Positions 12,863 through 38,972 of a stretch of DNA of 53,534 nt are shown piece by piece. Each line of letters opens with the position of its first letter. Within the stretch, counting starts at the first letter, position 1. The translations under genes and the position numbers were made by a program. The stretch covers positions 1-53,534 of the forward strand of contig JAFZSQ010000089.1 of assembly GCA_017619295.1 (NCBI GenBank), in the 5' to 3' direction. Origin of the DNA: Lachnospiraceae bacterium (GTDB lineage: Bacteria; Bacillota; Clostridia; Lachnospirales; Lachnospiraceae). The notes beneath the pieces were generated by a model. That model was not told the DNA's origin. It worked only from the letters and a program-made list of their open reading frames with translations, and did not search any database.

Positions 12863-13045
12863 TTAATCTTCGGCTACGTTCAGGGTAGAACGTATTAACC
12901 GCAGCATCTCTATTACGCTTCGGAAGTGTTCCTTCTTGTTCCCTTCAACCCAGGTTAAGGTCCCTTGCCAGGTGCTGTTCTCACAGCTCTTAACCTCCAG
13001 AACGAAACTGCTTCCTCCGCTGGTTACTGTCATCTTTCTTCTCAA
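12863..13045 (-). CDS. 60-residue small protein, paralogue of the gene at 8398
   Basis: Function unknown. The start is TTG at 13045, preceded by GGGGGTG six bases upstream. From this start the conserved SFVLEV segment begins at residue 13, as in the paralogue at 8398, which supports TTG over the ATG four codons later. Conserved blocks are EVKS, STWQGTLTWVEG, HFRS and LIRSTL. It is the last gene of the long operon, 22 bases behind the 3717-residue surface protein gene and followed by a terminator. It therefore belongs to the surface-protein/F-ATPase-like locus. There is no signal peptide or membrane segment. Confidence 0.85.
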   Translation of the reverse strand: MRRKMTVTSGGSSFVLEVKSCENSTWQGTLTWVEGNKKEHFRSVIEMLRLIRSTLNVAED

Positions 13046-13067
13046 TTATTTCACCCCCGTTACTTAA

Positions 13068-16000
13068 TTAAATCTTGACCTTATGCTTCTTTCGGTAGTA
13101 GATTGCACCGCCTATGCCCGCAAGGAGCGCTAAGGATGCCAATACATAAAGTTCTATTCCCTTCTTGTTTTCTTCATCCGTCGGCTTACTGTCATTTACA
13201 TAGCCTCCGTAAACACTGAAGTCTTTGACAGCGAGTCTTACGTTCTCGCTTTCATATCCGGAGTCTGACATGAACTTATCCATGTCGATGATTTCGTAGG
13301 TTCCGGTTGACTGGTTATAAACAGTCATAAGCTTCTTCTCCGTGGTGACACTGTCAGTGGGAGTTTCGCTTTCTGTCTCATCATCTTCCTTAACTTCCAG
13401 CAAGTCCTTCACGCTTGATGAATGTTTACCTACGTTGACTCCGTCGGTTTCAAGGCTTTCCGTGGCCACAGTTTCATTATTTGAAGCCTTTCCTTCCGTG
13501 GCGGGTGCCCTTCCTGTTCCGCCGCCTGTGGCTTCTCCTGTAGTCTCGTTGGTACCGTCCACAGTTTCTGAGCTTCCCTCAAGATCAGGTTCGTCAAGTT
13601 CATTAACTTCACCTGTTCCGGTGCCTCCGCCTTCGCCATTTGTATGGGCTTTCTTGGAGTTTTCTTCTCCTCCCATGCCTGCTGCCTTCGAACCTCCCAC
13701 AAGGGATTCTTCTCCGGTTTCTGATGCAGTGCCGCCCATGGCCAAAGCTTCGCCTCCGTTTCTTTCGCCTTCCGTGGATGCGCCGCCTAGGGTTCCGTTT
13801 CCTGCCGCTTCTCCTTCATCCATGTTGCCCGCAATAAGCATTCCGTCAGCGACATTACTCTTCTTGTTCTCGGAATCGCTTCCCTTAACTTCGTCGGTAT
13901 CAATTCCTATGTCAAAACCACTGTCCTCTTCAACGTTCCTTAAGGCCTTGTTATCTCCTGCCTTCTCGGTGTTATCTTCATCAAAGAGAACCTTTTCTGT
14001 AGACTTGTCAAAGGCTGTCTCACCGCCTTCATTATTGCCTTCAAGCAGTTCACCGTTATTATTGCCTACAACCATGGTTGCAAGTCTTTCGGGTGTTCCT
14101 GCAAGTTCTGCAACTCGTCCCGTTGCTCCGTATGAGGAAGCCGCAGGTTTTAACAAGGATTTATCTCCGCTAAAGTAAACCTTGATGTAGTCGATAAGGG
14201 ACATCTCATTCTTGATGGAATTGTCGAAGAGATACTCTCCCGTCATGTAGTTGTAACCGACTATACCTCCGTTAGCGTATTCCACGAGGATAAAGGGTGC
14301 AGATGTATTAAAGTTATTTGACATGTATACGATTCCGCTTCGCTTAAAGTCCTCGGGAGCATTTATGTTTTCACCCATGTAAAGGTCATACATAATTCCG
14401 TCGTTTCCGAGCACAGTCAGATACTCGTCTCCATCCTTCGTATACATGACTGCGGAATCCTTGATATTTTCAATGGAGGAATGAATGATATTCACATTAC
14501 CGTTCTTGCTCTTAAGTATCTGAGCCTCACGGTTAATGGCATCATCTGCACCGCCTATCATCGTGTACTTCCAATAAGTTGATACAGGCATTCCATTAAG
14601 GTTGAATTCTTCAAGGGCTTTAGAGCTCTTAGTAAGCTCTATTCCCTTAACCGGATCTCCTACTGCACTTCCGTCAGAAAGATTAATAACTGTTCCCGAT
14701 GAGGTAAGTCCAAGTCCTTCATAGATATTTACAAACCTACCGGAAATCAAAGTTGCCGTAGGATCTTTTCCGTCCTCGCCTCTCTCTTCAGCGCTGCTGC
14801 CGTAGCCTCTGACTACGCCGCCATCTGTCACATAGTAGTAAGCGGTATCGTAAGTCATTACGCGTCTCGCAAGTGCACGAGGCTTATAGATATATGGATT
14901 GCCGCCTTCGAGTGACTCACCCTCGTCGCTTTCTTCCTCGTCCAGGGAGTCTTCATCCTTATAGGCCATGGTGTAGTCATCAAGGAAACTGTAATCCTCC
15001 AAGATGTCTTCTATCTCATAGTCAACACCGAGAGTCTTTCCGTCTTCACTCATGGAGGCAATGTATGCGCCTACATCCGCATATCCATATTCAATTCTTA
15101 TCTTCTTGGCAAAATCATAACTTAGCGTCAGAACTCTTGAATTCTTCTCATCGTAATTAAGAAGTGTCTGAACTGCAGGTTCGGATTTGTTTCCGTAGTA
15201 TACCTTTACATATGTAGATTCTGCCTGCAAAGCATTCTCTGCAAACTCAATGTTTATTGTTGATGCCGAGCTTGCATATACCACAGGGTCTGATATGACA
15301 GGGCGCATTATCCTCATGGCTGCCCTTAACCTTATCTTACCCAGTGAGCTTGTAGGTGCGGGAAGATTGATATTCTTCCTTACCTGGTACTGTGTAAGAA
15401 GATCATTTGCCGCAGCGTTATTATTCACTCTTATATGAGGAAGATAACTCTTACCCGAAGCTGCGCCGTAATTTCCGTTGGCGTAAACACCTGTGTAAGT
15501 CTTTGTATCAGCTGTAAGAATTACGTAGTAGTATCGTCCTGTCCAACCTGGATTTGTATTTCCCGTGGTGGAGGATACATGGTACATAGTATAGTAAGGA
15601 CCGTGAGTCGCAAGGTCTGTTCCCGTAATAAGACGAACGTTTAAGGTATTGGTTGTATCCTTCTCCTTGGTGTCATATACACCTGTTCTGTCATTACTGT
15701 AGACTACATATCTTGCCACATCAGAGGTGCCTTCTATTACGTTATACTGAACGAACTTGGCACTTCCGTTCTTTGCCCAATCAGGGGCATCGGAGTTCTT
15801 AAGGAATGCCAGCTTCACAGTTCCTGCTGTGGTTTCCAGTTCAGTGCTGTCCCAGAAGAAGGTTATGTCGGCTTTATCAACAGTCGATCTGTCCTTGGCA
15901 TCACCGTAACTTCCGCTGGTCTGATTGCTTCTGTTAGCTCTTCCTTCAAAGCCGTCCACATTTCCTGCGAAAGCATAGGCATGGGTTCCGCCGGTGGCTG

Positions 16001-19000
16001 TAATCTTCGAAGCAAGACCAAGGTTTCTGTATGTATAAGTAATTTCGTTTGCCGAACCGGTCTTGGGAAGAGAATCTGTAGCATTGACTCGTCTTCCGCC
16101 ATCGGCTGCCGCACCGCTTCCGCCGTGAGAGCTTACTGCTTCGCTTGAGGCCATGGTAAGATCTCCCACCAAACCTCCGGCATAATCCTTTGCACTGACG
16201 GTTCCTGCAAAATAGTTTCCAAAAAGCGACGCAGTGGAGTAACCGTAGTTGTCCTTGCCGCTTACCTTGGTTACCGTGTATCCGTTTCTGTATGCACCGT
16301 CAATACCGCCCGCGTAGAAGTTGGCAGCTATTACATTTGCATTGGAGTAGCTGTACTGAACACTTCCTGTGAAGTGATATCCCGCTACACCTCCTACGTA
16401 GTTGTTACCTGAAACGAAGTATTTATCATCTGCCTTAGGCGATGCATCACTTTCAGGTTCTGCGTAGTAGAAGCATCTTGACAGTGAATTGTTAAGGTAA
16501 CCTGCCACGCCGCCGACATTATTGTGTTTAGGCGCATCTATGGTTGTATTTACAGCACTCGAATAGTAAACAGGATAATATGCATATCCGGTAACACCAC
16601 CGACGTTCTTTAATTCCGTCGTAAGGCTTCCCGCCTGGTTAAGTTCAATCTTAGAATCCTCAACCTTACAATAGTAGATTGAACCGTCAGATGACTTGTA
16701 GCCGTATCCCAGTCCTACGAAACCATGGTTGTTAATCTTAATCTTGGTTCCCTTAACCATGTCGTAGTAACTGATATAGGAAATCTGTCCTGCGATACCG
16801 CCTACATAGTTATAAACTGCGGTGGTATCCTTGACTGCGGTTACCAAAGTGTTGTAACAGTGGCTGTCGTAGTCATCAGTACAATAACCGAACATTCCGC
16901 CTATGTTATTTACGAATCCTTTGACCACAATGCCATCTACCATGTTGCTGACATTGGTTTCCGCTGTGTCATAAGGTGATGTTTTCACTACTCTTGTGTT
17001 GTAAGCCCCGGCAGCGTTAATCTTGCCAAGGAAGTACACATTGGTGTAGCCAATTAGTCCGCCAATGTAAGTACTGTTGGTGGTAGGATTCTTAAAGCTT
17101 ATGGTTGTAGTTGATGTATCTGTAAATCCGTCCGTATCCTTAGCTGCTGTTCCAGTAAGGGTTACGTCCGCGAAGAAGGAGCCGGTTTTACCGGATATTC
17201 TTCCGGGCTCAAAGCTTCCCACAATGCCGCCGACTCTCGCATTGGCATTTGAAGTAACGGTGAAATCTTTACCCTTAATCTTATAGAAGCTTGCCTTGCC
17301 TGCTCCTCCGGAGATTCCTCCTACGTATCCGTTTCCGAATACATTTACATTGGTAGCATCTATGTTTGTGAAAATCGTATTACTCTTCGCATAACCCGTA
17401 ATACCACCTGCATAGGGACTTGCAGTTGTAGCGTTTGTTCCTATGGTTACATTATTTAAAACAATCTTTCCGGCATCGGGATCTGCCTCATCATACTTAC
17501 CGATGCATCCACCGTTCTGGTATCCGATAATACCGATAAAGTTGTTGGCCGAGGTGCTGTTAATGGTGATGTTTTTAAACTCCATATCATAAACCGCACC
17601 CGATGAAGTTCCGATAAGACCGATACAGTCACGGTTCTTTGTGTTGACTGAGCAGTCACTGAATCTAAGGTTTGATATCTCTGAATTCAGTCTGAAGATA
17701 AGGTTCTCGTTAGCATTAGTGAGTCTGATGTTACTTAAAGTAAGCATTGAATCACCGGTCCCTACGGTTCTGAAACCTCTAAGACGACCTATCTTTGCAT
17801 TCTTTGTATAGTCTGCTCCCGATGAGAAATCGATATCATTTACGATTCTGAAGTTCTCATAGTCACCGTAATTGGTCTCCTCTTTAATGTACTTATTCCA
17901 GGTAGGAATATCTGCAATATCCGCAAAGAGCATAAGAGGAATTCGTACAGGGTTATTCTTGAAATTGGATTTGCCCACTACCTTGCCGTCAGCGCTTCTG
18001 TATCCTATTGAAATGAGCATGTAGCTGTCTAAGAAATGATCCTGCTTGGTGTCATACTCAATAGGCTGTCTTGCGGTACCGCTTGCATTAAAGGTTGCCT
18101 TGTAGTTGTTATAGAATCTGGTATTAAGTTTCTCTATTTCATAATCTGTGATGACATAGCCTTCAGGGCCTTCAAGGTCGAGGGCAATACGTCTCTCTGT
18201 CTCATTAACGAATACGCTTGTAACCGTAATAAGGTTGTTTGCCACCTTGGTAAGGCTTAAAGGTAAATCCTGCTCCTGGAAAGGCATGGGCACACTTGTG
18301 CCGTAGTAATAGAGCGTAGGCAGGTGTTCTGCTGCCGCCTTGCTGTAATCGTAAGCACCGGCATCCATGTCAAGGAGCGATGAATCCGTGTATGTGGCAG
18401 GGTCTGTGGCCTGATCATATGTGATAAGTCCGAATGTGTTCTTGTCACAATCCTTTACGGTTCCCTGATATGATTCATCTGTAATAAGTATTCCGTCCTC
18501 GTCAAATTTGGCTCCGGTAATACCGTTATAGAGCTGAACCTCACAGCCGTAGAAGGTACTTCTGGTTCCGGCCATGGAACCTGTTGTATATGAAACGTCG
18601 TCCGAATCTGTGTTGACGCACATTACATTTCCGAGAGCGATACCGGACATGTTGTTTCTCTCTGCGATGGTTCCCTCTGTGATGTTGATTTCACCGGCTA
18701 TACCACCTACGTTATCCTGGTAGCTCTTAACGTTTACTCTTGAAATGATGTTGGTCATCATGTTGGTGACGCAGCCTGCGGTATGGTAACCGACGATTCC
18801 GCCTACGTTGTTACCACGCACACTGATATCACCTGTAGCATACAGATTCTCCAAAGCTGAAGTTCCGCTGTAGCCCACAATTGCACCTGCACCCAGACAG
18901 GTTCTTAAATCGTTTGCTTCTATCTTTACGTTTCTTACAAAACAGTTGGTGACTCTGCAGCCGTCAGCTCTTGCGGCGATAGCTCCGATTTTACCTTCTG

Positions 19001-22000
19001 TATTTGAATTTGCAGGCTCGGCGTATGTAATCTCCGCGTCAGTTGAGCTGCAGTTTTCAATCAGAGTTCCGCCGTATGCATAGCAAACAAGGGTAGTCAG
19101 ATAAGTTCTTCCCGTAATATGAGATCTTACGGTGTGAACGTTGCTGACCTCTCCGTATAATGCTGTGATAAAACCGTTGTAATCTCTGTTGGCGACATTG
19201 GCGGTGAAATCCTCTATGCAAAGGTTCTTTATGGAACCGTCAACTCTTGAGAATACCACGGGGTTATATCCGCTTCCCGTTAAGGTAATATTCTTAAGGG
19301 AGAAGCCCTTTCTTGTGGCATTGCCATCCTTTTCGGCTCCGCCTTTTCCTTTACCACCGTCAAGTTTTCCCGTATAGTTTGCTGTTACGCAAATCTGCTC
19401 TCTTGGAACACCGGCAAAATCAATATCGTTTGCAAGTCTTGCGTTTTCATCAGGTTTCTTTACCACATAGTTGTACCAGTCATCCGCAGTCTCAATCATT
19501 CTGTAGAAATCTACTGCGAGAAGTGCATCGCTTTGTACAACCGATGTGGAGTTTCCAACGGACACGGTAAGGTTCTCTATCGCATACATTGACACAAACT
19601 TGGCGGGGTTTGAAACGTTAATATACATGGTAGTATATCCGTCAAGCATGGTTGTTTTGTAGGTGTCATCTTCGTAGAGGTCGGTGTCAAGGTTCTCGAT
19701 TGATACTGCTTTGATAACGGCGTTTCGGGGGTTATTTAGTCTAAGTTTAATGAGGGCAGAATCGCCGTTTTCACCGTATGAGATCACCTCCGTGGAAATA
19801 ACTTCCACCAACCTTGTGATGTTGCGATTGGGCAGAGGTAGCAGCTCCTGATCAGGGAGCTCGTTACTTAGGGTTACATGAGGGTAGAATCCTACCTCAA
19901 CGGGCTGCGCATCAAAGCCCGCGCCCAGAACCTCACCTTGCCAGTTGTAATCATATAGTGATTCCAAACCAATCATATGTTGCTTGGTAGATTTGGCATA
20001 AACATTATTACCTTCGTTCCAGTAATAAATTCCGGATTGTGTTGCACTGTTGACACCAAGGGCAGGTCCCACAATGTCAGCATCATACATCTTGCCGTTG
20101 TAAGGCGTGTTGTAGAATGACTGACCTACACTGTACATGTTTTCACAGTTTCCGACTGCGTAACCGATTATTGCGCCGTACTGTGTGTCACGTGCCTTTG
20201 AAGCATTCATGTCGGGGTTTGATACCACCACGTTTACAAGGGAGAAGACATGATCGGTCTTACCTCTTGAATTCTGGTAGCCTTCAATACCACCCACATT
20301 GATTCCCGAACCTGCAGAGGTGGTCTGGGTTACGGAGTTAATGTCAGAACCGTACGCGTAACCGTTTCTTATTACACCATCATTAAGGTACACAAGAAGA
20401 CCTGCGTTACTTCTTGCAGAGAAAGTACAACTGTCTCCCTGGGGATCATTGTTTATAACGAAGCGTTCAATAACACCGCTGGCTGCGTTTCGTCCCGCAA
20501 CAAGTCCGTAGTAGATGTTGTTGGTTCCGGAACCTCCAAGGTAATGAACGTAAATATCGTGAATATGTCCGTAGTTGTGTCTGCAGAAAATACCATGGTC
20601 ATACTCTCTTGTTGTGGTATGATCCGAGAACTCGAATACGGCATTTTTAATCTCAGCCTTGGGACCGATATTTGAGAAGATTGCTCCTTCGTTCCTGTGA
20701 TTATTCTTCTGAAGCTTATATCCCTGGAAGTCAAGTTCTCCTCTGAATGTCGATGTTACGGTTGCACTGGGAAGAGTTGCCTTTAACACACCATTGCTGT
20801 CATAGTCAACTTCATCCATGATGATGTCACCGGTAACAACGAATCTTGCGCCGGGATTCTTGCTGATTTTTTCTACAAATTCTTTAGCATTTGCAATCTC
20901 AAAAATGCAGTCTCTTGCATTAAATTCCAATGTGTCAAGAATCAGCTTGTTTTTATTTATAATTACGTACAGAGTCATTTTGTACGTATCATCCGCCTTG
21001 TTAACCTTCCACTCAGAGTTGGTTCTTATGGTATTTGTACCGTCATCATAAGCGTAGTTTTCTACCTTTGTAAGGCTTGTATCGAAGGAGGAAGTAATAT
21101 CAACCCCATTCTTCTCCACAGTGATGAAATAAGGCATCTGGCCGTTCATAATGCGGTCATCATCGTAAATGAGAACTCTGGTTTTTGCCGTAAGTCTCGT
21201 AGCAGAGAAGTTATCAAGACTTATTAATTTGATATTTCCCGAAAGGTTAATGGGATTATCAATAAAGTGCTGGTAAATCAGTTTGTTGGACTCAAAGGTC
21301 TCATTGGTATATCCTTCGTTGTACTCAACGGCAACAAAATTCATAAAGAAGGTTTCCGAAGGATCAAGTCCCGTAAACTCATAGGGAACAGGTGCGTCTG
21401 TATTCTTCGGTACACGTACGGCCCTTACCAGATTTCTGTGACTGTCATACAAATTGAGTACCACAACATGACCCGAGTTACCTGTGATGGCTCCGTCGGG
21501 GTCTTCAATTTTTACGTTAAATCTCAAGGTGCCGGCCGCCAAAAGATCGTCGGTAACCGTTACCTTTGCAGGCTCACGCATGGTCTTAAAGGCAGACCTT
21601 GTAAGAGATACGTTCATCTCATATCTCTTGCCGTTATAAAGGGCATAAACCACGGGAGTGATGGAATACTCCGTCATGCTTGTAAGGTAATAGGGAACCT
21701 CATCACCCACAACAGGATTATTCTTAATATCCCTGAAGTTCTTAAGAGCTTCCTTTTGTGCGTCTGAAAGGCCTTCGCCCTTCTCGAAATAATTGGCGTC
21801 CATCAATACACTTCCGGGAGTCAGATCCTTGTTTCCGGTGTCAGGATTGTAACCCGTGAAGTTATGCATTGCCTCATTATCAAAAACCATACCCGAATGA
21901 ACTCCGGGGTTGGCTCCCTCGGTAGTATTAATAAGAAATACCACGTCAGAAAGAAGGCCCTGAAGAGTTTCATTGGTCTTGGCATCGTTTATTGTGTAAG

Positions 22001-24221
22001 TTATGTTTGCACTGTGCGCTGTTACATGGGCTATGTTTACATCAATATATATATTTCCCAAAGAAGACAGCGTGGCAGCCTTAAAATCAATGCTTGCTAT
22101 CTCATCGTGTCTTAAGATTCCTCTCCTGTTGTCAAGGTCGTAGTCCGTAAGGAGGTAGACATAGTATCTCTGGTTAAGATCAAGACAGTTGGCTGTTATC
22201 TCAACGTCACTTGCCTCCAGTGCACCGTTATTTAAGGTATAATCGTTGGTATTAAACTTATAGACAAAGTGAACCGTACTCTCATTATCGGTATTGGCTC
22301 CGACTCTGGAGTTATTATTGTCTATGTATCCCTTTGCGGCATCCCACATGGTGGCGTCATCCGCATATCTTTCCTTCTTGATGGTGCTGATTACAAGATA
22401 AACGTCTCGCTCTGATGCAGGGCCGTTTTCAGGTGCTACGGATGCTGTGTCGGGGTCAATGATATTAACCTTAAACTTGGCCTCACCAATCTTGTTGGTA
22501 ACAAGTTCAATGGAACCCTGAGGTCTTGATTTACAGGTGTCAAATGTGCCTGTATTTCTGTATATCTGAAGGTCGTTACCAAAGTAATCCTTACCTGTGA
22601 TTACATAGCTGTAGGAGCTGTTTGAATCAAGAACGGGAAGGGATTTAAAATCAGCCAGTGCCCCTTTCTTGAAATCCGTTACTGCGGAAATATCAATGAC
22701 AGTAACAAACTTCTCCCCTGCTATTCCGTCCTTTGTAGCTGTGAGAATCAGATTCTTGGGATCAAGTCCGTAAACCGCCTCTTCATCCGTTACGGTCTTG
22801 TCGTAGGTTACATTGGTAATCTCTACATAATTGTCATAATAGAAAGGTATATCCTTGTAGGTAATTCCGTTTTCGGTACCTTCTTTGAAGTAGATACTTC
22901 CAACCTGTGAAAGGTCCCCGGTTCTTACGAAGATGTCCGAAGCCACAGACTCTACTATTCTCTCGTTGTGCTCATCATAATATGTGAAATATACGTTTAC
23001 TCTGTAATCGGTATTGGGCTTAATGTTTCCGCCGCCTGCAGTAACCGTTCCGGATGTAGCTGTATATGTTCTGTACGCAAGGGTCTCCTTGCCGTTACCC
23101 TGCTGCTCATAAAACTCAAACTGAACCTTTCTTGATTTGTCAATTCGAGATGCGGGGTCGCTTACGTTAACGCCTACTCTTACTCTGTAAACGCCGGGAG
23201 TTGTACCTGTTATGGTGACAACAGGTTTTATATAATCCTCCACAAGGGGTGCCTCGGTGTCCTTGGGAGTTTTGTCCGGTCTTAAGCTGTCCGGTCTGAC
23301 ACCTCCGGTACCCCCTTGTGGGGATTTGCGGGATTTGGCTCCGGAGGCTGCTGCAGTGGCTGCAGGAGAAAGAATGGCATCATATCTTTTAGGACGCTCT
23401 TTCTTCTCACGCTCCGGTTTCTTGACCTCTTCCTTTTCAGGTTTGGTCTCTTCTATTTCAGGTTCTTCAATAACCTCTTTTTCAGGTTCCTCGATTATCT
23501 CCTCTTCGAAGGGCTCCTCAGCCTCCTCAAAGGTCTTTTTGTCATAAGTGATACCAAGATTTATAAGGAGCTCTTTATAAGTAATTTCCTTATCGCCAAC
23601 TGTAAGAAGCGTGTCGGGAGTCATTCCGTTAAGAGCTCTGTAATGCATCTCCTCGTCGCTTAATTCGCAATAAGTAAAGTATTTTTCGGTAAAGAAAACA
23701 ACACTGTTCATGGGCACTTCTTTTGCCACGCCCTGATCAACCACAAAGTTATCCAGTGTTACAAAGAATCCGTTGGGAAGTCCCGCAAAAAGATACTCGT
23801 CATCTGCAGCACGGCTTCCGTCGGGGTTAAATGAAATACGTTCGCTTACGGAAAGTCCCTTATAAGTCGAGAACTTCTCGTATTCGTTGTTGAAAAGCTT
23901 TGCCCTGTCATCGAAAAACCAGATTCCGGCTCCTCCGTTAATAATCAGGGGAAAGTTAATGTCAATCTTTGTTTTCTTGTTCTCGCCCATGTAATATGAG
24001 CTGCCTCTGGTATATACGAAATCCAGAGCATCAAAAGGATAAAGGCCTGCATCGACCTCTTTCGGTTCCTCCTCAGGATCGTTCATGAGTAAAGCGGATA
24101 CGGACTTGTCCTCAATGGCCAGTCCGCCACGATCCATCTGCATGAATATGTTAAATCTTGTCTGTAAAAGGAGCAGGATTACAATAATTGCCGCTCCTAT
24201 TGCAAAGCATATCTTCTTCAT
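13068..24221 (-). CDS. giant (3717-residue) surface protein with Fn3-like and GLUG-type beta-helix regions
   Basis: No exact family name. An N-terminal hydrophobic segment (residues about 4-20) acts as signal or anchor. A novel-looking N-domain runs to about 230, then an EEP/KPE-rich linker (about 235-290). Fn3-like beta modules fill about 330-1100. Three long beta-helix-like blocks each open with a similar segment: near 1107 (AKEFVEKISKNPGARFVVTGDI), 1580 (DDWYNYVV...ANDIDFAG) and 2102 (TWNKYIKEE...VNDIDFSS). They are filled with GLUG-like turns such as VGGIAG, VGGIVGYH and YAGGITGYA. Residues about 3380-3600 are low-complexity Gly/Glu/Ser/Asn-rich. The end is a membrane helix (YVLASLALLAGIGGAIYYRKK) without LPXTG. 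It follows the F-ATPase-like genes by 21 bases, preceded by AAGGG. It is probably an adhesin or surface fibre, and the largest product of the operon. Confidence 0.88.
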   Translation of the reverse strand: MKKICFAIGAAIIVILLLLQTRFNIFMQMDRGGLAIEDKSVSALLMNDPEEEPKEVDAGLYPFDALDFVYTRGSSYYMGENKKTKIDINFPLIINGGAGIWFFDDRAKLFNNEYEKFSTYKGLSVSERISFNPDGSRAADDEYLFAGLPNGFFVTLDNFVVDQGVAKEVPMNSVVFFTEKYFTYCELSDEEMHYRALNGMTPDTLLTVGDKEITYKELLINLGITYDKKTFEEAEEPFEEEIIEEPEKEVIEEPEIEETKPEKEEVKKPEREKKERPKRYDAILSPAATAAASGAKSRKSPQGGTGGVRPDSLRPDKTPKDTEAPLVEDYIKPVVTITGTTPGVYRVRVGVNVSDPASRIDKSRKVQFEFYEQQGNGKETLAYRTYTATSGTVTAGGGNIKPNTDYRVNVYFTYYDEHNERIVESVASDIFVRTGDLSQVGSIYFKEGTENGITYKDIPFYYDNYVEITNVTYDKTVTDEEAVYGLDPKNLILTATKDGIAGEKFVTVIDISAVTDFKKGALADFKSLPVLDSNSSYSYVITGKDYFGNDLQIYRNTGTFDTCKSRPQGSIELVTNKIGEAKFKVNIIDPDTASVAPENGPASERDVYLVISTIKKERYADDATMWDAAKGYIDNNNSRVGANTDNESTVHFVYKFNTNDYTLNNGALEASDVEITANCLDLNQRYYVYLLTDYDLDNRRGILRHDEIASIDFKAATLSSLGNIYIDVNIAHVTAHSANITYTINDAKTNETLQGLLSDVVFLINTTEGANPGVHSGMVFDNEAMHNFTGYNPDTGNKDLTPGSVLMDANYFEKGEGLSDAQKEALKNFRDIKNNPVVGDEVPYYLTSMTEYSITPVVYALYNGKRYEMNVSLTRSAFKTMREPAKVTVTDDLLAAGTLRFNVKIEDPDGAITGNSGHVVVLNLYDSHRNLVRAVRVPKNTDAPVPYEFTGLDPSETFFMNFVAVEYNEGYTNETFESNKLIYQHFIDNPINLSGNIKLISLDNFSATRLTAKTRVLIYDDDRIMNGQMPYFITVEKNGVDITSSFDTSLTKVENYAYDDGTNTIRTNSEWKVNKADDTYKMTLYVIINKNKLILDTLEFNARDCIFEIANAKEFVEKISKNPGARFVVTGDIIMDEVDYDSNGVLKATLPSATVTSTFRGELDFQGYKLQKNNHRNEGAIFSNIGPKAEIKNAVFEFSDHTTTREYDHGIFCRHNYGHIHDIYVHYLGGSGTNNIYYGLVAGRNAASGVIERFVINNDPQGDSCTFSARSNAGLLVYLNDGVIRNGYAYGSDINSVTQTTSAGSGINVGGIEGYQNSRGKTDHVFSLVNVVVSNPDMNASKARDTQYGAIIGYAVGNCENMYSVGQSFYNTPYNGKMYDADIVGPALGVNSATQSGIYYWNEGNNVYAKSTKQHMIGLESLYDYNWQGEVLGAGFDAQPVEVGFYPHVTLSNELPDQELLPLPNRNITRLVEVISTEVISYGENGDSALIKLRLNNPRNAVIKAVSIENLDTDLYEDDTYKTTMLDGYTTMYINVSNPAKFVSMYAIENLTVSVGNSTSVVQSDALLAVDFYRMIETADDWYNYVVKKPDENARLANDIDFAGVPREQICVTANYTGKLDGGKGKGGAEKDGNATRKGFSLKNITLTGSGYNPVVFSRVDGSIKNLCIEDFTANVANRDYNGFITALYGEVSNVHTVRSHITGRTYLTTLVCYAYGGTLIENCSSTDAEITYAEPANSNTEGKIGAIAARADGCRVTNCFVRNVKIEANDLRTCLGAGAIVGYSGTSALENLYATGDISVRGNNVGGIVGYHTAGCVTNMMTNIISRVNVKSYQDNVGGIAGEINITEGTIAERNNMSGIALGNVMCVNTDSDDVSYTTGSMAGTRSTFYGCEVQLYNGITGAKFDEDGILITDESYQGTVKDCDKNTFGLITYDQATDPATYTDSSLLDMDAGAYDYSKAAAEHLPTLYYYGTSVPMPFQEQDLPLSLTKVANNLITVTSVFVNETERRIALDLEGPEGYVITDYEIEKLNTRFYNNYKATFNASGTARQPIEYDTKQDHFLDSYMLISIGYRSADGKVVGKSNFKNNPVRIPLMLFADIADIPTWNKYIKEETNYGDYENFRIVNDIDFSSGADYTKNAKIGRLRGFRTVGTGDSMLTLSNIRLTNANENLIFRLNSEISNLRFSDCSVNTKNRDCIGLIGTSSGAVYDMEFKNITINSTSANNFIGIIGYQNGGCIGKYDEADPDAGKIVLNNVTIGTNATTASPYAGGITGYAKSNTIFTNIDATNVNVFGNGYVGGISGGAGKASFYKIKGKDFTVTSNANARVGGIVGSFEPGRISGKTGSFFADVTLTGTAAKDTDGFTDTSTTTISFKNPTTNSTYIGGLIGYTNVYFLGKINAAGAYNTRVVKTSPYDTAETNVSNMVDGIVVKGFVNNIGGMFGYCTDDYDSHCYNTLVTAVKDTTAVYNYVGGIAGQISYISYYDMVKGTKIKINNHGFVGLGYGYKSSDGSIYYCKVEDSKIELNQAGSLTTELKNVGGVTGYAYYPVYYSSAVNTTIDAPKHNNVGGVAGYLNNSLSRCFYYAEPESDASPKADDKYFVSGNNYVGGVAGYHFTGSVQYSYSNANVIAANFYAGGIDGAYRNGYTVTKVSGKDNYGYSTASLFGNYFAGTVSAKDYAGGLVGDLTMASSEAVSSHGGSGAAADGGRRVNATDSLPKTGSANEITYTYRNLGLASKITATGGTHAYAFAGNVDGFEGRANRSNQTSGSYGDAKDRSTVDKADITFFWDSTELETTAGTVKLAFLKNSDAPDWAKNGSAKFVQYNVIEGTSDVARYVVYSNDRTGVYDTKEKDTTNTLNVRLITGTDLATHGPYYTMYHVSSTTGNTNPGWTGRYYYVILTADTKTYTGVYANGNYGAASGKSYLPHIRVNNNAAANDLLTQYQVRKNINLPAPTSSLGKIRLRAAMRIMRPVISDPVVYASSASTINIEFAENALQAESTYVKVYYGNKSEPAVQTLLNYDEKNSRVLTLSYDFAKKIRIEYGYADVGAYIASMSEDGKTLGVDYEIEDILEDYSFLDDYTMAYKDEDSLDEEESDEGESLEGGNPYIYKPRALARRVMTYDTAYYYVTDGGVVRGYGSSAEERGEDGKDPTATLISGRFVNIYEGLGLTSSGTVINLSDGSAVGDPVKGIELTKSSKALEEFNLNGMPVSTYWKYTMIGGADDAINREAQILKSKNGNVNIIHSSIENIKDSAVMYTKDGDEYLTVLGNDGIMYDLYMGENINAPEDFKRSGIVYMSNNFNTSAPFILVEYANGGIVGYNYMTGEYLFDNSIKNEMSLIDYIKVYFSGDKSLLKPAASSYGATGRVAELAGTPERLATMVVGNNNGELLEGNNEGGETAFDKSTEKVLFDEDNTEKAGDNKALRNVEEDSGFDIGIDTDEVKGSDSENKKSNVADGMLIAGNMDEGEAAGNGTLGGASTEGERNGGEALAMGGTASETGEESLVGGSKAAGMGGEENSKKAHTNGEGGGTGTGEVNELDEPDLEGSSETVDGTNETTGEATGGGTGRAPATEGKASNNETVATESLETDGVNVGKHSSSVKDLLEVKEDDETESETPTDSVTTEKKLMTVYNQSTGTYEIIDMDKFMSDSGYESENVRLAVKDFSVYGGYVNDSKPTDEENKKGIELYVLASLALLAGIGGAIYYRKKHKVKI

Positions 24222-24242
24222 GACATTCCCTTCTTCATGAAC

Positions 24243-25495: not shown

Positions 25496-27336
<1,841 letters not shown>

Positions 27337-27353
27337 TAATGACCCTCCCGTTT

Positions 27354-30272: not shown

Positions 30273-30285
30273 GTGCTATCTCCGA

Positions 30286-30543
<258 letters not shown>

Positions 30544-30559
30544 TCAGAAATTAATCTAT

Positions 30560-32188: not shown

Positions 32189-32207
32189 GTTTATTTCCTC
32201 ACTATGT

Positions 32208-35200
32208 TTATTCACCTGTGGTCTGTACTGTTTCGGTCTTAACCCTGGTATCAAGGTCACCTAAAAGTTTACCCGTGCCGCTTCTGTACTGAATCTTTAC
32301 GTCATACCACTGGTCTGAATCAATGGAAGATGATGACCAGTCAAAGGTCTTCGTAAAGGATGAATCCTTCGCCTCATCCTCAGATATTTCAATACCGTTC
32401 TCGGTAGTGGTGTAAACCATGGTTCCATTTGAGTTATATGCCGTAAGGACAATCTTTCTGACGTTAGCGAAGTTACTGAGGTTGTAGAATTCAATCTCCA
32501 ATCTGTCCACTGTAGCGTCGGAACCAATCGATGCTGTGGCTGCCGAGCCTGTGCTTACGGTAGCCTCGCTGAATACCAGTACATCTCCTTCCGTCTCATC
32601 AAATCGTCCGTTGTTGTTAAGGTCCGCCTGACCCTCCACTCTTACGATGTAATCACCGGGATCCACATCGTTAAAGGTAACAGTTTCGTACTCTGCTCCA
32701 CCGGAGTTTGTAAGAACTACATCTTGTGAGTCCACAGCATTATCTGTATCTGTTCTCTTGTAGAGATTTACTGTGTACGTTCCGTCAAGGATTGCCTTTT
32801 GTGAATCCGTGCAAGTAACCGAAGCATTGATATTATTCTCCGAAGGAGTAGCTGTCAGTCTGAAGTCAGGAAGTGCAAGACTTGTGGGTGTCTGCACAGG
32901 AAGAATGGTGAAGCCCAATTCTTCGTCGGTATCACTGTCATCCACTGCCCAAACTCGAACGGTATATGTGCTTCCCAGATAGAATCTTCCTGTTCCGGGG
33001 TTCATTGTTGTGCTGAAGGGATTGTTCTGATCCGCTCTCTGGCTGTAGTACTGATATCCGGGATCACCAAGTTTATCAATAGTTCCTTCTGCCACAACGC
33101 TGCCGTTATCAATATCTGTTCCGCTTACAATCTTGTACTTGACTGTCATGCCGGTACCCTCATCACCGGGGATTCCAAAGCCGAAGGAAACGTTCTTGTT
33201 ATCGTAGGCTTCGTATGAATAGGTGGGTCCGGTTACTCCGATATTTATGTATTTAAGTGTTTTAAATGTGTACTGAGCATTAACTCTTTCTTTGTCAGGA
33301 TCTATGCTGTACAAAGGACGCTCGTTTCCGGCGCTGTCGTAAGTAAAGAACAAAACGCCGTAGTTGGTCTCCGTGGACAGCTTTCTGAGCCTCAAAGTAA
33401 AGTTATTGTTCGTAACCGTAATATATGTCTGATTCTTAAACTCCGTGGTGTCATAGTCAGGAGTTGAAGCATCTGTGCTTACCTCGAAGAATTCGCCTCT
33501 GTCATCGGAATTCTTCTTAAGTTTTACAACTGTGTCAGAGCCGCTCTTCTGAATCAGCTTCGCGTAGATTCTTTCGGTGCTTACTCCGTGAAGAGACATC
33601 TCAAGGGTTGCTGACTTCGCACCTGCGGTAATCCTCTCCTGCATGATTGCTGCAACTACAGTACCCATGGTAATGTTCAGGGTCTTGTTGCTTGTGTCGG
33701 TTCCGTCATAGATACCAAAGTCAAATGCGCTCTTTGCCAGTTTCTCTGCAACGTAATAGTTCTCTCCTATGTGCAAACCATTTTCATCGAAGGTAAATCC
33801 ACTAAGAGGTGCAGTTTCAAACTGAGGATTTGAAACAAGAGCGTTGTAGTAATATCTCTGGTCCATGGTGGCACTCGATCTGTTGCCGGGGTTAGATGTT
33901 ACATTAAGTCCGCCGCCTGCAACATTTCCGGGAACAACCATGGAACACAATGTTGATGCCCCAAGGCCGTTGGTTGTCGTCCAGTTACCATCCTCTCTCT
34001 GTATATATTTTGTTGTTCCGTCATTGACGTTCACTCTTCTTAATGCAAACAGGTTCTCACGCTCGGTACTCGACTCATAGAAGGTTCCCTTGTCGTAGTC
34101 ATCCATAAGACCTTCATAATCACTGAATCCCGAAGACCTTGTGGAATAATAGCCGTTTACGCTGACGCTTAAGTTAGTGCCGGGACTAAACTTGGCTGCG
34201 AGAGGACCCTGGTCAACATATGCGTATCCATAAGGCGTTCCGGTTCCTGAGAGTACTCCTCTCGAATCCGAATCCACGTAAACGGGATCGTAAATAACGC
34301 TGTCATTACCGTTACTGAAGACTACTCTGAATGCGGAGAACTTATCCAAATCTGTTCCCATTAGTGTCAGTCTGTATCTGTAGTTACCTTCGTTTACAAG
34401 AGGTGCCACAGTTCCGTCAGAAAGTTTATCCGCTGCGTTGTCATTGGTGGTCCAGGTAAGACCCTTAAGATAAATATTATTTGCGGATATGGTCTGGGTC
34501 TGGAAATGCTGAACCGGCTTGGATGTAATATATTTAGTTGCTTCCGAAGCAGCTGATAAGGTCTTGTAAGGAATTCCCACACTGTAGTAAATTCCGTCTG
34601 TACCAAGTCCGTCAATTGTCAGTGCCTTAAAGTCGTTGTTGTTTCTGTATCCGTCGGTATCATCCATTCCCGGCACATTTACAGTTGATTTGGTTGTTGA
34701 TGTAGCTACCCCAGCATATGTATTGGCCTTTGTAATTTCAAATGCCGCTTTGCCCGCATTGTCTGTAATGATTGCTTTATCCGGGTCAATAATTCTGTAA
34801 TTCCATATGTCTTTTCCGTTCTCTGAAGAGAGAGGATATCTCTCGGCTACAGGTGTCTGCATGTCAAGGGATATTACAGCGGATCTGTACAAAGGAACAG
34901 GTGCACTTCCGTATGCGCAATCAGGGTAAAAATGATCGTTATCGGGATCGATACAAGGTGTAATCGTATGGTCAGCCAATACCCTGTATGCGATGATATA
35001 TCTCTTACCTCTGGTCAAAATATCTTCATCATCAGCACTGCTTCCGTCAGGCTTCTTCCAGGTCATTACATATGAGCCAACACTCTTTGTACCCTTGAAG
35101 TAAAGCTCCGTGTCGCGAACACCGTACTCCATACCATCTCTAGTGTGTTCACCAACAAGAACCAGATTACACTTCACATCTGTTCCGTATGTGTAGGTTC

Positions 35201-38200
35201 CGTCAGGGTTTGCCGTAACAGTAGCTATACCTTCCGAGAAATCATCCGGTGCCTTGGGATAAATAAGCTGGTTGGATGCAATGTCATAATTATCATCAAG
35301 TTCATAGATGTAGTAATAAATCTTGTTTACATCCGCGTATCCGTAATCTGCTCTGAATCGGAGTCCAACCACTGTGCTGCCGTCAATTCCGTCTTCCGAA
35401 TAGCCTATAGCCGCTGCGGAATTGGGAAGAGCATCTACAACAACCTGTCTGTTGGGATTGTTTGCCTGTACGTGTTTCTTTGAGATTCCGAATCTGATAA
35501 CGTTCTCGCCTTCCTTGAAGGGAATTGTGTTACCACTTCCGCCGGTTCCGTCTGCAAGATTACGGGTGTAGTCGTATGCTCCGATGACCTTAATCTTGAA
35601 CTCTCCGCCTGAGAAAAGGGCGTTATCGTTGTTATCAATACCAAAGTCTGAAGGTGTGATTTCAAATACTGATGTGTCACTTGCAGCTTCCGAATCTTTG
35701 ATTGTAAGGCCCTTACTTTCTTCAGGCCCCGTAAGCTCTGCGTCAGGGTTGTGCTCTGTCTTGTCACGTCCAATGAAAGCTGCGTCTTTAAACTGAGAGT
35801 CATGGGATCTTGTATCTCCGTCCGCAAGAACCTTTGCATTACCAATGATTCTCTCAAGTCCCGAATCCTCCACGTGAATAAGCTGTAATTCCAATCTTTC
35901 AAGTACGGATGCAGAATATTGGGCCTGCGCTATTTCAGTCGCATCTTCTGAAAGAGATGTGACGTTAATGCTGTATCTGAAAGCAGATTGGGGATTGGCA
36001 AGTCTTCTTGCAGCCAAAGCTAAGGGCTTATGAGTCTTGGTATTAACTCTGGTGCCCGTAAAGTATGTGCTTGCTTCGGCACCAGTAATGTTTCCGTCCC
36101 CGTTTGTATCCTGAGGACCGCTTAATATCAATGTGTAAACGGAATCCTGATGAAGCCCCTCTTTCTTGAAGGGAATGAGCCAGTAGTTTCCGTTAGACTT
36201 GATGATATCTCCCCATTCTGTTGTATAGTTCGTTTCGTAATTATCCTTGTACTTAAGTGTGTATGTATCCGCATACTCACCGGAAATGGCAAGTACAAGG
36301 GGATTGGTGCCTCCTATATGCTGAAGGACCGATGTGTTGTTCCAGTTACTTGATATATCTCCTGTACCATCTGTGATTTTGATGAATCCGGAAATTGTAT
36401 CCGCACTCTGCTGATTCTCATCAATCAGAAGTTCAACCATAAGATCCGTGTTAACCGCGCTTAAGTCAGATACGTTGGAAAACAGTGTTGATATCTCCAT
36501 ATCCTTCTCGTTATCGTTGAACATTACGGTTACGCGTGCTCTGTAGACATCCAAATCTCCCGAAGGAATGGAGAATGTATGCCCTGAAAGCTGAGTCAAA
36601 TCCTTAGAGTATGTGGCAACAAGTTCATCCATTGACCCGGTCTGAAGAGCACTGGATATATCTGAATCCTTAAATAAATCGATTCGATAACTTGAAATTC
36701 CGCAATCAGGGTCCGCAATGGGATTAAGGTTTACCGTAATAGTGTGATTCTTGTCATTGGAAGTGATGGTAGGTGTCATAAGATCCACCGACTTCCTCTG
36801 TCCCTGGGTGGCGGTTGCGGTATAGGTCTCGTAATCGTAAGGTGTCTGCTTAAGAGTCTTTAACTCTACTTCGCTTCCGTCAGTGGGAATAAGTTCATTT
36901 CCCACCTTTACATTTCCAAGTTCCGCATAGTATATTGTATTGCTCTTAACATCATCAAAGCTTAGAGGTCTCCCTGAGGAGCCGGGAATGGGATTGGAAT
37001 CATTTACTACGAATTCAGCCCCTGTGCTGGTACCGCTAAATAAAGCTATGGTCTGCTTTTGACCGTTGTCGTCGTAGTAGAAGAATCTTACGTTGTAACT
37101 GTCAACCTGACCGGTTACTTTGGTTACGGCCGCTATCTCAGAGTCCGTTACATGAGCCTTTGTGATTCCTATTCCCAAAGGTTCCGTTCTGAAAATCTTC
37201 TGGAAAAGGATTCCTGTTTGGAGGCTTTCTCCCTTGCCGGGCAAGTATTCACCTTCAACAACAAGCACATACTCTCTGTCAGCATTTAATCCGTCGAAGG
37301 TCAATGCTCCACTGCCGCTTTCTATCTTGGCACCAAGCTCCTGCTGTTTGCTTTCCAGTTCTGTACCGCCCACCAATTGCATGGTTTCTCTGTCGTAAAC
37401 CTTTACCTTGGTGCTTCCGGCTGTAAGGGTATTGTCCGGATCTTCCATGTTGAAATTCATGGTTGCACTTCCGGGAGTTACTGAATAACTCCTGTTGTTT
37501 TCGCCTGAATTCACCCTGATTTCAGGTCTTGAATAAAGGTCCACTGACTGAAGCTGGCTAGCGCTTGCTGCAGTATCAGCATCCTTGCCGGCTACACCCT
37601 CAGCACCGTCATAACCCATGATTCCGGTGTCACCTTCGAGGCCGTCTTTGCCGAGTCCGCCTGTGGATCCCATGGCGCCTTCAGTGCCTGCTTCACCTTC
37701 TCCGCCCTGTTCGCCTTCTTTTCCTTCTTCACCGGCTTCACCCTGCTCACCGTCCGTGCCGTCGGTGCCGTTTACGCCGTCTTTACCGTTTATAACGTTG
37801 AAAGTAGGAATAGTAGGGCCGTCTTCTATGTTTTCATCTATGTCGATGTAGCTGTCGTCGTCAATTGTCATGTCGTCCAGAGAAAGGACTGCTTCTCCGT
37901 CCACCATGAAGTTCTTGCCCACAAGGTTAAGCTCTGCGCCTCCTCTTGTGACAAGTGTGCTGTCTGCAGCAACTGTCTGATATGTTCCTGACTGATGGGA
38001 AATACGAACGATACCGTTGTCAACGTAAGTAAGCTGAACATAATCAGAGAACTGAACATCATCACCTGCAGTCTTAAGTGTTACATCAGGGGACAAAAGC
38101 ATGTAGTCCTGATCTGAAATCTTCCAGATGAATTCTGTTATGTTCATGGCTTCACCACGGCTGCTCATTTCGTAAGCGCCGCCGTTTTTTACAAGAACGG

Positions 38201-38576
38201 TGTTCTTTGAAAGGCTGTAATAGCCATAATTAGATTCCGCAATTTCGGATACGTCCATAATAACACCCTTTTTGAAGGATCCAAGGGAACCGTCATTATA
38301 GTGAATGAAATGATCCGAATCAATTAATTCATTCGTTCCGGATGCGTCTTTGAAGGAAATCTGAGTACCATACTTCTCTTTATACTTGGTGCCCTGAGTG
38401 AAGTAATACTCCATATTAACGTTGTCGGTAACAAACTCTTCATCCGATGGATCGAGAATGAAACCGTCAGCAACAAAGGTTCTGGTGTTTCTGGCATTAT
38501 TGACCGCAGAAAGCACAGTAAGCCCTGCTCCCAAAGCCAATACTGCAGCCAAAATAAACATAATACCCTTCTTCAT
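32208..38576 (-). CDS. 2122-residue membrane-anchored surface protein with collagen-like stretch and Fn3-like repeats
   Basis: First gene of the long operon, with AAGGAG seven bases before ATG. The N-terminal hydrophobic segment (residues 4-25) is followed by a beta-rich module (about 40-255) similar in pattern to that of the 542-residue protein. Residues 264-332 are 23 uninterrupted Gly-X-Y triplets, rich in Glu and Asp and without Pro, a bacterial collagen-like type. The remaining 1780 residues are a chain of Fn3-like beta modules with many TYTVRVW- or YRIDLF-type strands, similar to those in the 3717-residue protein. No C-terminal anchor or LPXTG is present. The protein should project from the membrane as a long rod. 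It is co-transcribed with the F-ATPase-like cassette. Confidence 0.88.
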   Translation of the reverse strand: MKKGIMFILAAVLALGAGLTVLSAVNNARNTRTFVADGFILDPSDEEFVTDNVNMEYYFTQGTKYKEKYGTQISFKDASGTNELIDSDHFIHYNDGSLGSFKKGVIMDVSEIAESNYGYYSLSKNTVLVKNGGAYEMSSRGEAMNITEFIWKISDQDYMLLSPDVTLKTAGDDVQFSDYVQLTYVDNGIVRISHQSGTYQTVAADSTLVTRGGAELNLVGKNFMVDGEAVLSLDDMTIDDDSYIDIDENIEDGPTIPTFNVINGKDGVNGTDGTDGEQGEAGEEGKEGEQGGEGEAGTEGAMGSTGGLGKDGLEGDTGIMGYDGAEGVAGKDADTAASASQLQSVDLYSRPEIRVNSGENNRSYSVTPGSATMNFNMEDPDNTLTAGSTKVKVYDRETMQLVGGTELESKQQELGAKIESGSGALTFDGLNADREYVLVVEGEYLPGKGESLQTGILFQKIFRTEPLGIGITKAHVTDSEIAAVTKVTGQVDSYNVRFFYYDDNGQKQTIALFSGTSTGAEFVVNDSNPIPGSSGRPLSFDDVKSNTIYYAELGNVKVGNELIPTDGSEVELKTLKQTPYDYETYTATATQGQRKSVDLMTPTITSNDKNHTITVNLNPIADPDCGISSYRIDLFKDSDISSALQTGSMDELVATYSKDLTQLSGHTFSIPSGDLDVYRARVTVMFNDNEKDMEISTLFSNVSDLSAVNTDLMVELLIDENQQSADTISGFIKITDGTGDISSNWNNTSVLQHIGGTNPLVLAISGEYADTYTLKYKDNYETNYTTEWGDIIKSNGNYWLIPFKKEGLHQDSVYTLILSGPQDTNGDGNITGAEASTYFTGTRVNTKTHKPLALAARRLANPQSAFRYSINVTSLSEDATEIAQAQYSASVLERLELQLIHVEDSGLERIIGNAKVLADGDTRSHDSQFKDAAFIGRDKTEHNPDAELTGPEESKGLTIKDSEAASDTSVFEITPSDFGIDNNDNALFSGGEFKIKVIGAYDYTRNLADGTGGSGNTIPFKEGENVIRFGISKKHVQANNPNRQVVVDALPNSAAAIGYSEDGIDGSTVVGLRFRADYGYADVNKIYYYIYELDDNYDIASNQLIYPKAPDDFSEGIATVTANPDGTYTYGTDVKCNLVLVGEHTRDGMEYGVRDTELYFKGTKSVGSYVMTWKKPDGSSADDEDILTRGKRYIIAYRVLADHTITPCIDPDNDHFYPDCAYGSAPVPLYRSAVISLDMQTPVAERYPLSSENGKDIWNYRIIDPDKAIITDNAGKAAFEITKANTYAGVATSTTKSTVNVPGMDDTDGYRNNNDFKALTIDGLGTDGIYYSVGIPYKTLSAASEATKYITSKPVQHFQTQTISANNIYLKGLTWTTNDNAADKLSDGTVAPLVNEGNYRYRLTLMGTDLDKFSAFRVVFSNGNDSVIYDPVYVDSDSRGVLSGTGTPYGYAYVDQGPLAAKFSPGTNLSVSVNGYYSTRSSGFSDYEGLMDDYDKGTFYESSTERENLFALRRVNVNDGTTKYIQREDGNWTTTNGLGASTLCSMVVPGNVAGGGLNVTSNPGNRSSATMDQRYYYNALVSNPQFETAPLSGFTFDENGLHIGENYYVAEKLAKSAFDFGIYDGTDTSNKTLNITMGTVVAAIMQERITAGAKSATLEMSLHGVSTERIYAKLIQKSGSDTVVKLKKNSDDRGEFFEVSTDASTPDYDTTEFKNQTYITVTNNNFTLRLRKLSTETNYGVLFFTYDSAGNERPLYSIDPDKERVNAQYTFKTLKYINIGVTGPTYSYEAYDNKNVSFGFGIPGDEGTGMTVKYKIVSGTDIDNGSVVAEGTIDKLGDPGYQYYSQRADQNNPFSTTMNPGTGRFYLGSTYTVRVWAVDDSDTDEELGFTILPVQTPTSLALPDFRLTATPSENNINASVTCTDSQKAILDGTYTVNLYKRTDTDNAVDSQDVVLTNSGGAEYETVTFNDVDPGDYIVRVEGQADLNNNGRFDETEGDVLVFSEATVSTGSAATASIGSDATVDRLEIEFYNLSNFANVRKIVLTAYNSNGTMVYTTTENGIEISEDEAKDSSFTKTFDWSSSSIDSDQWYDVKIQYRSGTGKLLGDLDTRVKTETVQTTGE
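37581..37787 (-). repeat. collagen-like Gly-X-Y coding repeat, 23 triplets
   Basis: 207 bases encode 23 Gly-X-Y triplets, starting GKDGVNGTDG and ending GAEGVAGKD. Acidic residues dominate and Pro is absent, so any triple helix would be stabilised by charge rather than by proline. Confidence 0.93.
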
Positions 38577-38943: not shown

Positions 38944-38972
38944 AAAAAAAAGACAGGGACAATGTCCCTGTC
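38944..38972 (-). terminator. terminator behind the 219-residue gene
   Basis: On the minus strand GACAGGGAC-ATT-GTCCCTGTC is followed by eight T, 14 bases behind the stop of the 38987-39646 gene. It separates that transcript from the giant operon. Confidence 0.95.

Follow-up and report, generated by a model that had tools for sequence, protein, structure and literature searches.

The stretch analysed here, referred to throughout as the window, comprises the 53,534 nucleotides of contig JAFZSQ010000089.1 (assembly GCA_017619295.1) from a gut-type Lachnospiraceae bacterium, the source being a draft genome of 2.75 Mb in 99 contigs that is 95.8% complete. Its minus strand carries a run of 25.7 kb with 13 open reading frames (ORFs), in which a set of genes for the F-type ATPase subunits c, b-delta, alpha, gamma, beta and epsilon, here called the cassette, lies among genes for giant surface proteins (Table 1). 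The core finding is of what appears, from its sequence, to be an active ATPase seated on a ring that is unable to carry ions. A preliminary description of the window had recognized the cassette and its surroundings; the main point that it missed is the loss of the carboxylate from the c ring that is present.

The genes of the run are closely spaced. From the gene for the 2122-residue surface protein to the 60-residue ORF at the end, and taking conserved starts, the intervals are 19, 28, 13, -17, -4, 17, -4, -26, -4, -4, 21 and 22 bases; the GGX protein is taken to start at a GTG (32188, giving 542 residues) and c at an ATG (30531, giving 81 residues). Re-reading of the ORFs bears out the preliminary description, according to which 13 tightly packed minus-strand ORFs of these lengths are separated by gaps of at most 28 bases. 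It had also seen no internal terminator, and terminator-like sites in the two scanned stretches that hold the run occur at about the rate of shuffled sequence (16 against 11.7 ± 3.5, and 15 against 13.2 ± 3.5). Co-transcription of the run is therefore likely but unproven.

Table 1. Features of the run and of two related clusters. Positions are those of the window unless another locus or record is named.
Feature	Position	Strand	Description
c subunit, 81 residues	30286..30531	-	Pfam 36.2 bits (cut-off 24); GRNPETK loop; helix 2 without carboxylate
b-delta fusion, 271 residues	29457..30272	-	Putative peripheral stalk by AlphaFold and Foldseek; sequence evidence weak
Alpha subunit, 441 residues	28148..29473	-	Pfam 241 bits (cut-off 29.5); Walker A lysine and arginine finger kept
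Gamma subunit, 265 residues	27354..28151	-	Pfam 84.9 bits (cut-off 39.9); signature VKVMNFHxLxRVD
Beta subunit, 459 residues	25757..27136	-	Pfam 215 bits (cut-off 29.5); Walker A lysine and catalytic glutamate kept
Epsilon-like subunit, 96 residues	25492..25782	-	N-terminal sandwich only
2122-residue surface protein	32208..38576	-	N-terminal hydrophobic segment, short GXY (collagen-like) tract, Ig-like match
GGX head protein, 542 residues	30560..32188	-	One N-terminal transmembrane (TM) helix, head domain, 24 GGX triplets, weak C-terminal FN3 match
67-residue ORF	27133-27336	-	Between gamma and beta
Five-helix membrane protein, 181 residues	24950..25495	-	Five predicted helices
236-residue protein	24243..24953	-	One TM helix; the domain of a fused relative is modelled as all-beta
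3717-residue surface protein	13068..24221	-	Hydrophobic segments at both ends
Terminator-like site	38952..38972	-	Clear and strong; upstream of the run, marking its edge
Listeria second cluster	L158:7338-19001, also L141
c-like hairpin in 12-TM protein, Mycoplasma cynos type-3 cluster (L159/L160)	W01:C1:707996-708172		Matched by cassette c profile

The catalytic part

Relatives of the cassette were sought by a contig scan over 84,980 species genomes, in which 133 stretches encode a relative of gamma. Since the scan rests on two peptide patterns drawn from five members, this number is a minimum and is biased towards close relatives. The loci considered below are the best 80 of these 133 gamma-bearing stretches, some of which are near-copies of one another (e.g. 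L056 and L059).

The residues on which catalysis depends are kept throughout. In beta, the Walker lysine and the catalytic glutamate are intact in 79/79 sequences (77 loci, the window and a second cluster in Listeria, to which we return); in alpha, the Walker lysine and the arginine finger are intact in 78/78 (76 loci, the window and Listeria), truncated or missing genes being left out of both counts. The proteins nevertheless fall below the cut-offs of the curated models for the housekeeping enzyme, scoring 443.7 against 462.85 for atpD and 381.6 against 484.45 for atpA. Neither epsilon nor b-delta has a usable Pfam match from the single window sequence. For epsilon, PF02823 is matched by one of 24 relatives, and alignment with housekeeping epsilon by pairwise hhalign is weak (E 0.0067); the pairwise hhalign E-values given here and below have no database behind them.

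The c ring and subunit a

It is the GRNPETK-type loop of c that meets gamma and epsilon in F1Fo, and this rotor loop is present in all 71 of the c sequences found in the 80 loci. The ion-binding carboxylate is absent from the housekeeping Glu position in the same 71/71 genes, its place being taken by T (35), A (29), S (3), M (2) or V (2). With the carboxylate gone from helix 2, a proton- or sodium-binding site of known kind is absent from the ring of the cassette. The c subunit of the ordinary operon in the window's own genome carries the usual glutamate.

Surface-protein genes had been said to fill the place of subunit a. In the window's genome, the sole match to PF00119 lies in the ordinary operon on contig C28 and none lies in the cassette, nor does the profile of the five-helix protein match subunit a.

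The peripheral stalk

The b-delta protein is modelled by AlphaFold with a helix over residues 2-80, a helical bundle and a beta C terminus (predicted local distance difference test score, pLDDT, 89.6; predicted template modelling score, pTM, 0.56). Foldseek gives 80 matches at E <= 10 and none at E <= 0.001. Among the 50 matches listed, ranks 1-35 are all ATP synthase chains, taken to be delta/OSCP or b-delta; their probabilities reach 0.97, with low template modelling scores of 0.17-0.28 by query length. In sequence searches, OSCP is matched by one of 56 members (E 0.0035), hhalign against housekeeping delta gives E 0.0012 over 30 columns, and the PDB returns ATP-synthase b-delta (best E 0.017) mixed with coiled-coil noise. 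The modelled fold thus suggests that the cassette has a b/delta peripheral stalk of the kind found in F1Fo-ATP synthase.

The ordinary ATP synthase

A normal atp operon was to be expected elsewhere in the genome if the cassette had a role of its own, and one is found. Contig C28 carries a, c, b, delta, alpha, gamma and the start of beta, assigned by order and size, and runs off the contig end; the end of contig C51 carries the remainder of a beta followed by epsilon. A housekeeping F-type alpha/beta pair is present in five of the seven cassette genomes searched (G000, G001, G020, G159 and G673), and the other two (G335 and G348, 85 and 87% complete) show no such pair and have V-type A and B instead. 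FliI is present in the window's genome (C89) and in G335.

Relatives and gene order

Matches to b-delta (E 0.001) occur in six of 397 family genomes sampled, and matches to the gamma profile (E 1e-20) in three of 392 order genomes and three of 348 phylum genomes, the window's own genome being counted in each. By NCBI ranks, the 80 loci comprise 62 from Clostridia (29 of them Lachnospiraceae), 8 from Bacilli, 2 from Erysipelotrichia, 3 from Bacillota without a class, 1 from Mycoplasmatota, 3 from Coriobacteriales and 1 from Bifidobacterium. Paired cassette loci on separate contigs of one assembly are seen three times (L044/L055, L053/L064 and L046/L106), and some genomes may have two copies. 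Neither gamma (50,697 phage records) nor b-delta (72,556 plasmid records) has a match at E 0.01, and a phage or plasmid source is unsupported.

Homologues among the 80 loci number 80 for gamma, 80 for beta, 77 for alpha, 75 for b-delta, 75 for epsilon, 71 for c, 71 for the 236-residue protein and 68 for the GGX protein; the 'beta' of L049, L092 and L096 is in fact the alpha gene, since the contig ends there. The order c-b-delta-alpha-gamma-beta-epsilon was part of the preliminary description; Pfam matches bear out alpha, beta, gamma and c, and the window's order of the genes in view is kept in 75 of the 80 loci. The five exceptions are the same three contig ends and two loci that are truly rearranged (L072 and L081), where the GGX gene follows the cassette, in L072 together with a 2222-residue giant. 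Locus L073, built like these two, was scored as having the same order only because c, GGX and 236-residue homologues were not found there.

The surface genes travel with the cassette, as the preliminary description would have them do. Next to the GGX gene stands an ORF of 300 or more codons in 59/59 loci with enough sequence, and in 58 of these it has at least 1404 codons; on the far side, an ORF of at least 600 codons starts no more than 3 kb after the 236-residue gene in 57/61 loci. Median gaps from GGX to epsilon range from -1 to 23 bases.

Phylogeny of alpha and beta

Trees were built from concatenated alpha and beta, using every second of the 73 loci that have both genes. All 41 cassette rows cluster together with a Shimodaira-Hasegawa-like approximate likelihood ratio (SH-aLRT) support of 100, and in a mixture-model tree of 26 rows (13 from the cassette) the group is supported at 100/100. 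In the latter tree, the cassette, the Listeria second cluster and the type-3 F1-like enzyme of Mycoplasma cynos come together at 100/99, and the cassette joins type 3 at 98/97; the Listeria cluster is a separate deep branch that joins the cassette also when type 3 is left out (99/98). Approximately unbiased (AU) tests reject grouping the cassette with the Lachnospiraceae housekeeping copies (p-AU 0.0002), the second Listeria copy with its housekeeping copy (p-AU 0.0008) and the type-3 enzyme with its mycoplasma housekeeping counterpart (p-AU 0.007). They speak against a recent duplication of housekeeping genes in any of the three, with the caution that the constraint groups were chosen once the tree was known and that the mycoplasma branch is long. 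The checks that had been named in advance thus come out in favour of a clade apart from housekeeping AtpA/AtpD, and of an enzyme of its own whose genes stand beside giant surface genes, in a genome that also has a normal atp operon. An ordinary duplicated ATP synthase is ruled out by the missing carboxylate, the missing subunit a and the separate clade.

Surface and membrane proteins of the run

The 2122-residue protein has homologues in syntenic loci. Among the relatives of the GGX protein, 40 of 68 have at least eight consecutive GGX triplets, and the profile of its head matches the family of the 236-residue protein (pairwise hhalign 92.6%, E 4.7e-7), with no clear match to the head of either giant (7.5 and 0.8%, pairwise hhalign). 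Homologues of the 236-residue protein exceed 340 residues in 15 of 71 loci, and those that are fully read carry membrane helices on the same chain. One such fusion of the five-helix and 236-residue proteins (L050:12486-13685) is predicted by AlphaFold to consist of a helical part and an all-beta domain (pLDDT 92.2, pTM 0.82). Sequence searches of the PDB with the head and five-helix/236-residue profiles gave nothing firm, and six proteins searched against defence families at E 0.001 gave no match.

The two small ORFs are less readily placed. The 67-residue ORF is kept in a same-genus genome (G001); because the gamma-beta spacing is 13 bases in G020 and has a median of 9 bases over the 80 loci, so that most relatives have no room for it, it probably does not belong to the unit. 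The 60-residue ORF has a 68% match elsewhere in the same-genus genome (L015:1744-1926, plus strand), where an opposite-strand ORF (L015:7319-7507) directly follows the giant gene and may mask a copy dropped by the ORF filter.

Other variations were seen in passing. A gene for a ParA-like ATPase, judged by its motif, stands between gamma and beta in one locus (L103:10776-11546). Alpha has a long C-terminal extension in several loci, including L080 (890 residues) and L087 (562 residues), in both of which the end is acidic; alpha frames exceed 550 residues in 8/80 loci, the longest having 1090. Beyond the run, positions 8652-12545 of the window encode a 1297-residue protein that has extended regions resembling coiled coils and, at its C terminus, a hydrophobic segment; a 36%-identical counterpart lies at the same position in the same-genus genome.

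What the cassette may do

We favour, with a probability of roughly 0.7, an F-type motor that is not coupled to ions and that passes ATP-driven motion via a passive ring to surface proteins. With its active sites intact, alpha3-beta3 would hydrolyse ATP and rotate gamma-epsilon. These would hold the conserved loop of c, and the ring, having no ion-binding residue, would turn as a passive part of the membrane. The modelled b-delta stalk, anchored in the membrane, would keep alpha3-beta3 stationary. Motion or conformational work might then reach the membrane-anchored head proteins and the giants, perhaps via TM helices that touch or fill the ring. The likely outcome would be surface fibres that are moved or cycled by ATP, by analogy with what has been proposed for mycoplasma gliding and the MIB-MIP enzymes. 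Mechanical work on something across the membrane would seem the most economical use of a stator and shaft combined with an uncoupled ring. The preliminary description had spoken of an ATP-driven machine for giant surface fibres; the conserved link to surface genes upholds the general idea, and whether fibres are moved, assembled or displayed is a matter of inference.

Several observations weigh against such a motor. The transfer of motion to the surface proteins, and likewise the contact between these and the ring, are steps that we infer. The five-helix protein could be an unrecognized stator, and the model search for subunit a covered the window's genome. The identity of epsilon is weakly supported, through its position, its length and a weak match to a profile. 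One c subunit (L080:6327-6569) has an Asp in helix 2, one position before the usual Glu; it is the only one of the 71 with a charged residue in that helix, and the same locus shows no giant after its 236-residue homologue. Indeed L080 and L085 lack a giant there with more than 7 kb in view, as do L077 and L078 in the 2.2-2.4 kb in view. Finally, the great length of the type-3 mycoplasma branch and the position of the ordinary M. cynos copy, which likewise falls beside the group (99/97), make some long-branch pull in the placement of type 3 possible.

Alternatively, the cassette might be an ATP-driven device for assembly or export, in which the energy of F1 goes into folding, releasing or pushing surface proteins, with the ring serving as an anchor or conduit rather than as a drive shaft. 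FliI and SctN, which are relatives of F1, serve protein export. Profile similarity to these two proteins and the encoding of surface genes with the cassette speak for such a device. However, gamma, the b-delta stalk and the rotor loop of the ring are all kept, which fits rotation against a stator, and the giants start with hydrophobic signal-like segments, so that ordinary Sec export is available. We therefore regard this alternative as unlikely. We give rather less credence to a static ring, with F1 and gamma forming an ATP-dependent switch that reshapes membrane proteins, for instance in sensing or releasing bound targets. This would be a variant of the motor favoured above, and the authors of PMC12994834 put forward a similar model for MIB-MIP. 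Least probable by some distance is that the cassette still pumps ions, with subunit a or some c subunits supplied by the housekeeping enzyme, since, even with an ordinary F1Fo in the same genome, the carboxylate is absent from 71/71 c genes and from Listeria, and two of the seven cassette genomes have V-type subunits only.

Taking the uncoupled motor as a basis, a family of surface-linked F-ATPases can be delimited by a carboxylate-free c, b-delta, F1 and adjoining surface genes, all of which the window appears to encode. Such a family might represent a novel rotary ATPase class of walled Gram-positives, with the c ring as a mechanical part carrying ATP-driven rotation across the membrane to giant collagen-like and glycine-rich surface fibres; it would include the Listeria operon, would have given rise to the mycoplasma motors for gliding and antibody cleavage, and would make the 12-TM protein a fused ring. 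We offer this wider proposal tentatively, at somewhat less than even odds. To our knowledge, the well-studied rotary ATPases with a c ring couple rotation to ions. A conserved ring without the coupling residue, together with an intact F1, a stator and long surface-type genes at nearly all loci with enough sequence, points to rotation as direct surface work, and offers a possible origin, with clearer parts, for the unexplained F1-like enzymes of mycoplasmas. Among the open-access literature matches listed (subscription papers and preprints being outside the scope), none describes a carboxylate-free c ring or the operon as a non-pumping machine. What is new here is the carboxylate-free c of the cassette, the intact F1 sites, the conserved synteny with surface genes, the separate clade and the Listeria counterpart.

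Comparison with known systems

The housekeeping F1Fo-ATP synthase has the same subunits in the order c-b/delta-alpha-gamma-beta-epsilon. The cassette differs from it in lacking subunit a and the ring carboxylate, in having surface genes in the run, and in alpha and beta that score below the curated cut-offs. The N-ATPase, or alternate F1Fo, resembles the cassette in being an extra F-type operon beside a normal one. The N-ATPase operons of Burkholderia and Acaryochloris, in contrast, begin with beta-epsilon and have a before c, and the scores of the cassette fall well below the curated N-ATPase models (alpha 355.2 against 750.5; beta 397.3 against 752).

The type-2 G1-ATPase of Mycoplasma mobile, which functions in gliding, is likewise derived from F1, and is thought, according to PMC11864180, to drive surface proteins across the membrane; it is unlike the cassette in being a twin motor with an N-terminal extension of beta. 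The curated gliding models score the cassette at 379.5 against 600 for alpha and 369.4 against 850 for beta.

The type-3 F1-like X0 enzyme is the best working parallel. Its authors report (PMC12994834) that it is necessary for MIB-MIP function and co-purifies with MIB and MIP under cross-linking. As with the cassette, it is an extra F1 beside an ordinary F1Fo (in M. cynos) and adjoins a surface system, and it lies on the cassette side of the alpha and beta tree; subunit a is not recognized by the authors (PMC12994834, PMC3369863). It is unlike the cassette in that b, delta and a separate c are unreported, a 12-TM protein standing in their stead, and in being far more divergent. The curated type-3 models give the cassette 380 against 570 (MSC_0618) and 296.8 against 520 (MSC_0619), and hydropathy reveals no 12-TM protein in the window's run. 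There is, however, a weak resemblance in the membrane part. When the cassette c profile is run over the whole M. cynos record, housekeeping c comes first (36.2 bits) and a stretch of the 12-TM protein second (18.2 bits, E 0.0023). The margin is small, a further stretch in G159 reaching 15.5 (E 0.04) and a housekeeping-c-like stretch in G673 16.0. With the 71-row c profile, only two of 2,819 segments, both with cassette c genes, score above the 12-TM protein (15.3 bits); below it come 12.7 (by position the Burkholderia c gene) and 10.1. Helix 2 of the matched c-like hairpin, too, has no carboxylate. Since one hairpin of six is matched, a fused c ring as the possible origin of the X0 membrane protein is a lead and not a result. 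The preliminary statement that the mycoplasma F1-like enzymes lack a c ring holds less well here, and for type 3 it may be too strong.

A counterpart of the same layout is found in Listeria monocytogenes, one chromosome of which, in a record catalogued with plasmids, has a second cluster encoding a 1959-residue giant, a 769-residue head protein, c, b-delta, alpha, gamma, beta, epsilon and a 186-residue membrane protein. By gene order these are lmo0086-lmo0094. In the literature, lmo0088-lmo0093 are listed as ATP synthase subunits within the natural deletion of one strain (PMC13082608), lmo0091 is among genes affecting invasion or intracellular replication (PMC3091722), and lmo0090, lmo0091 and lmo0093 are listed as unique to Listeria sensu stricto (PMC5736727); the passages cited make no mention of the missing c carboxylate. 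The Listeria operon is unlike the cassette in being called an ATP synthase in this literature, in having no 236-residue homologue or second giant in view after epsilon in L141, and in a 186-residue membrane protein with no match to the five-helix profile. Both have a giant, a head protein, the same cassette layout, a carboxylate-free c and a small membrane protein. When aligned by hand, the Listeria c has valine at the glutamate position. Its b-delta has 348 residues and matches OSCP (37.5 bits, cut-off 22.3), and the GGX-head profile matches the 769-residue protein (pairwise hhalign 93.5%, E 2.3e-7) and, weakly, the 1959-residue giant (56%). Because gene removals and surface assays are routine in Listeria, it is through this member that the idea of a rotary ATPase working directly on the cell surface should soon be testable.

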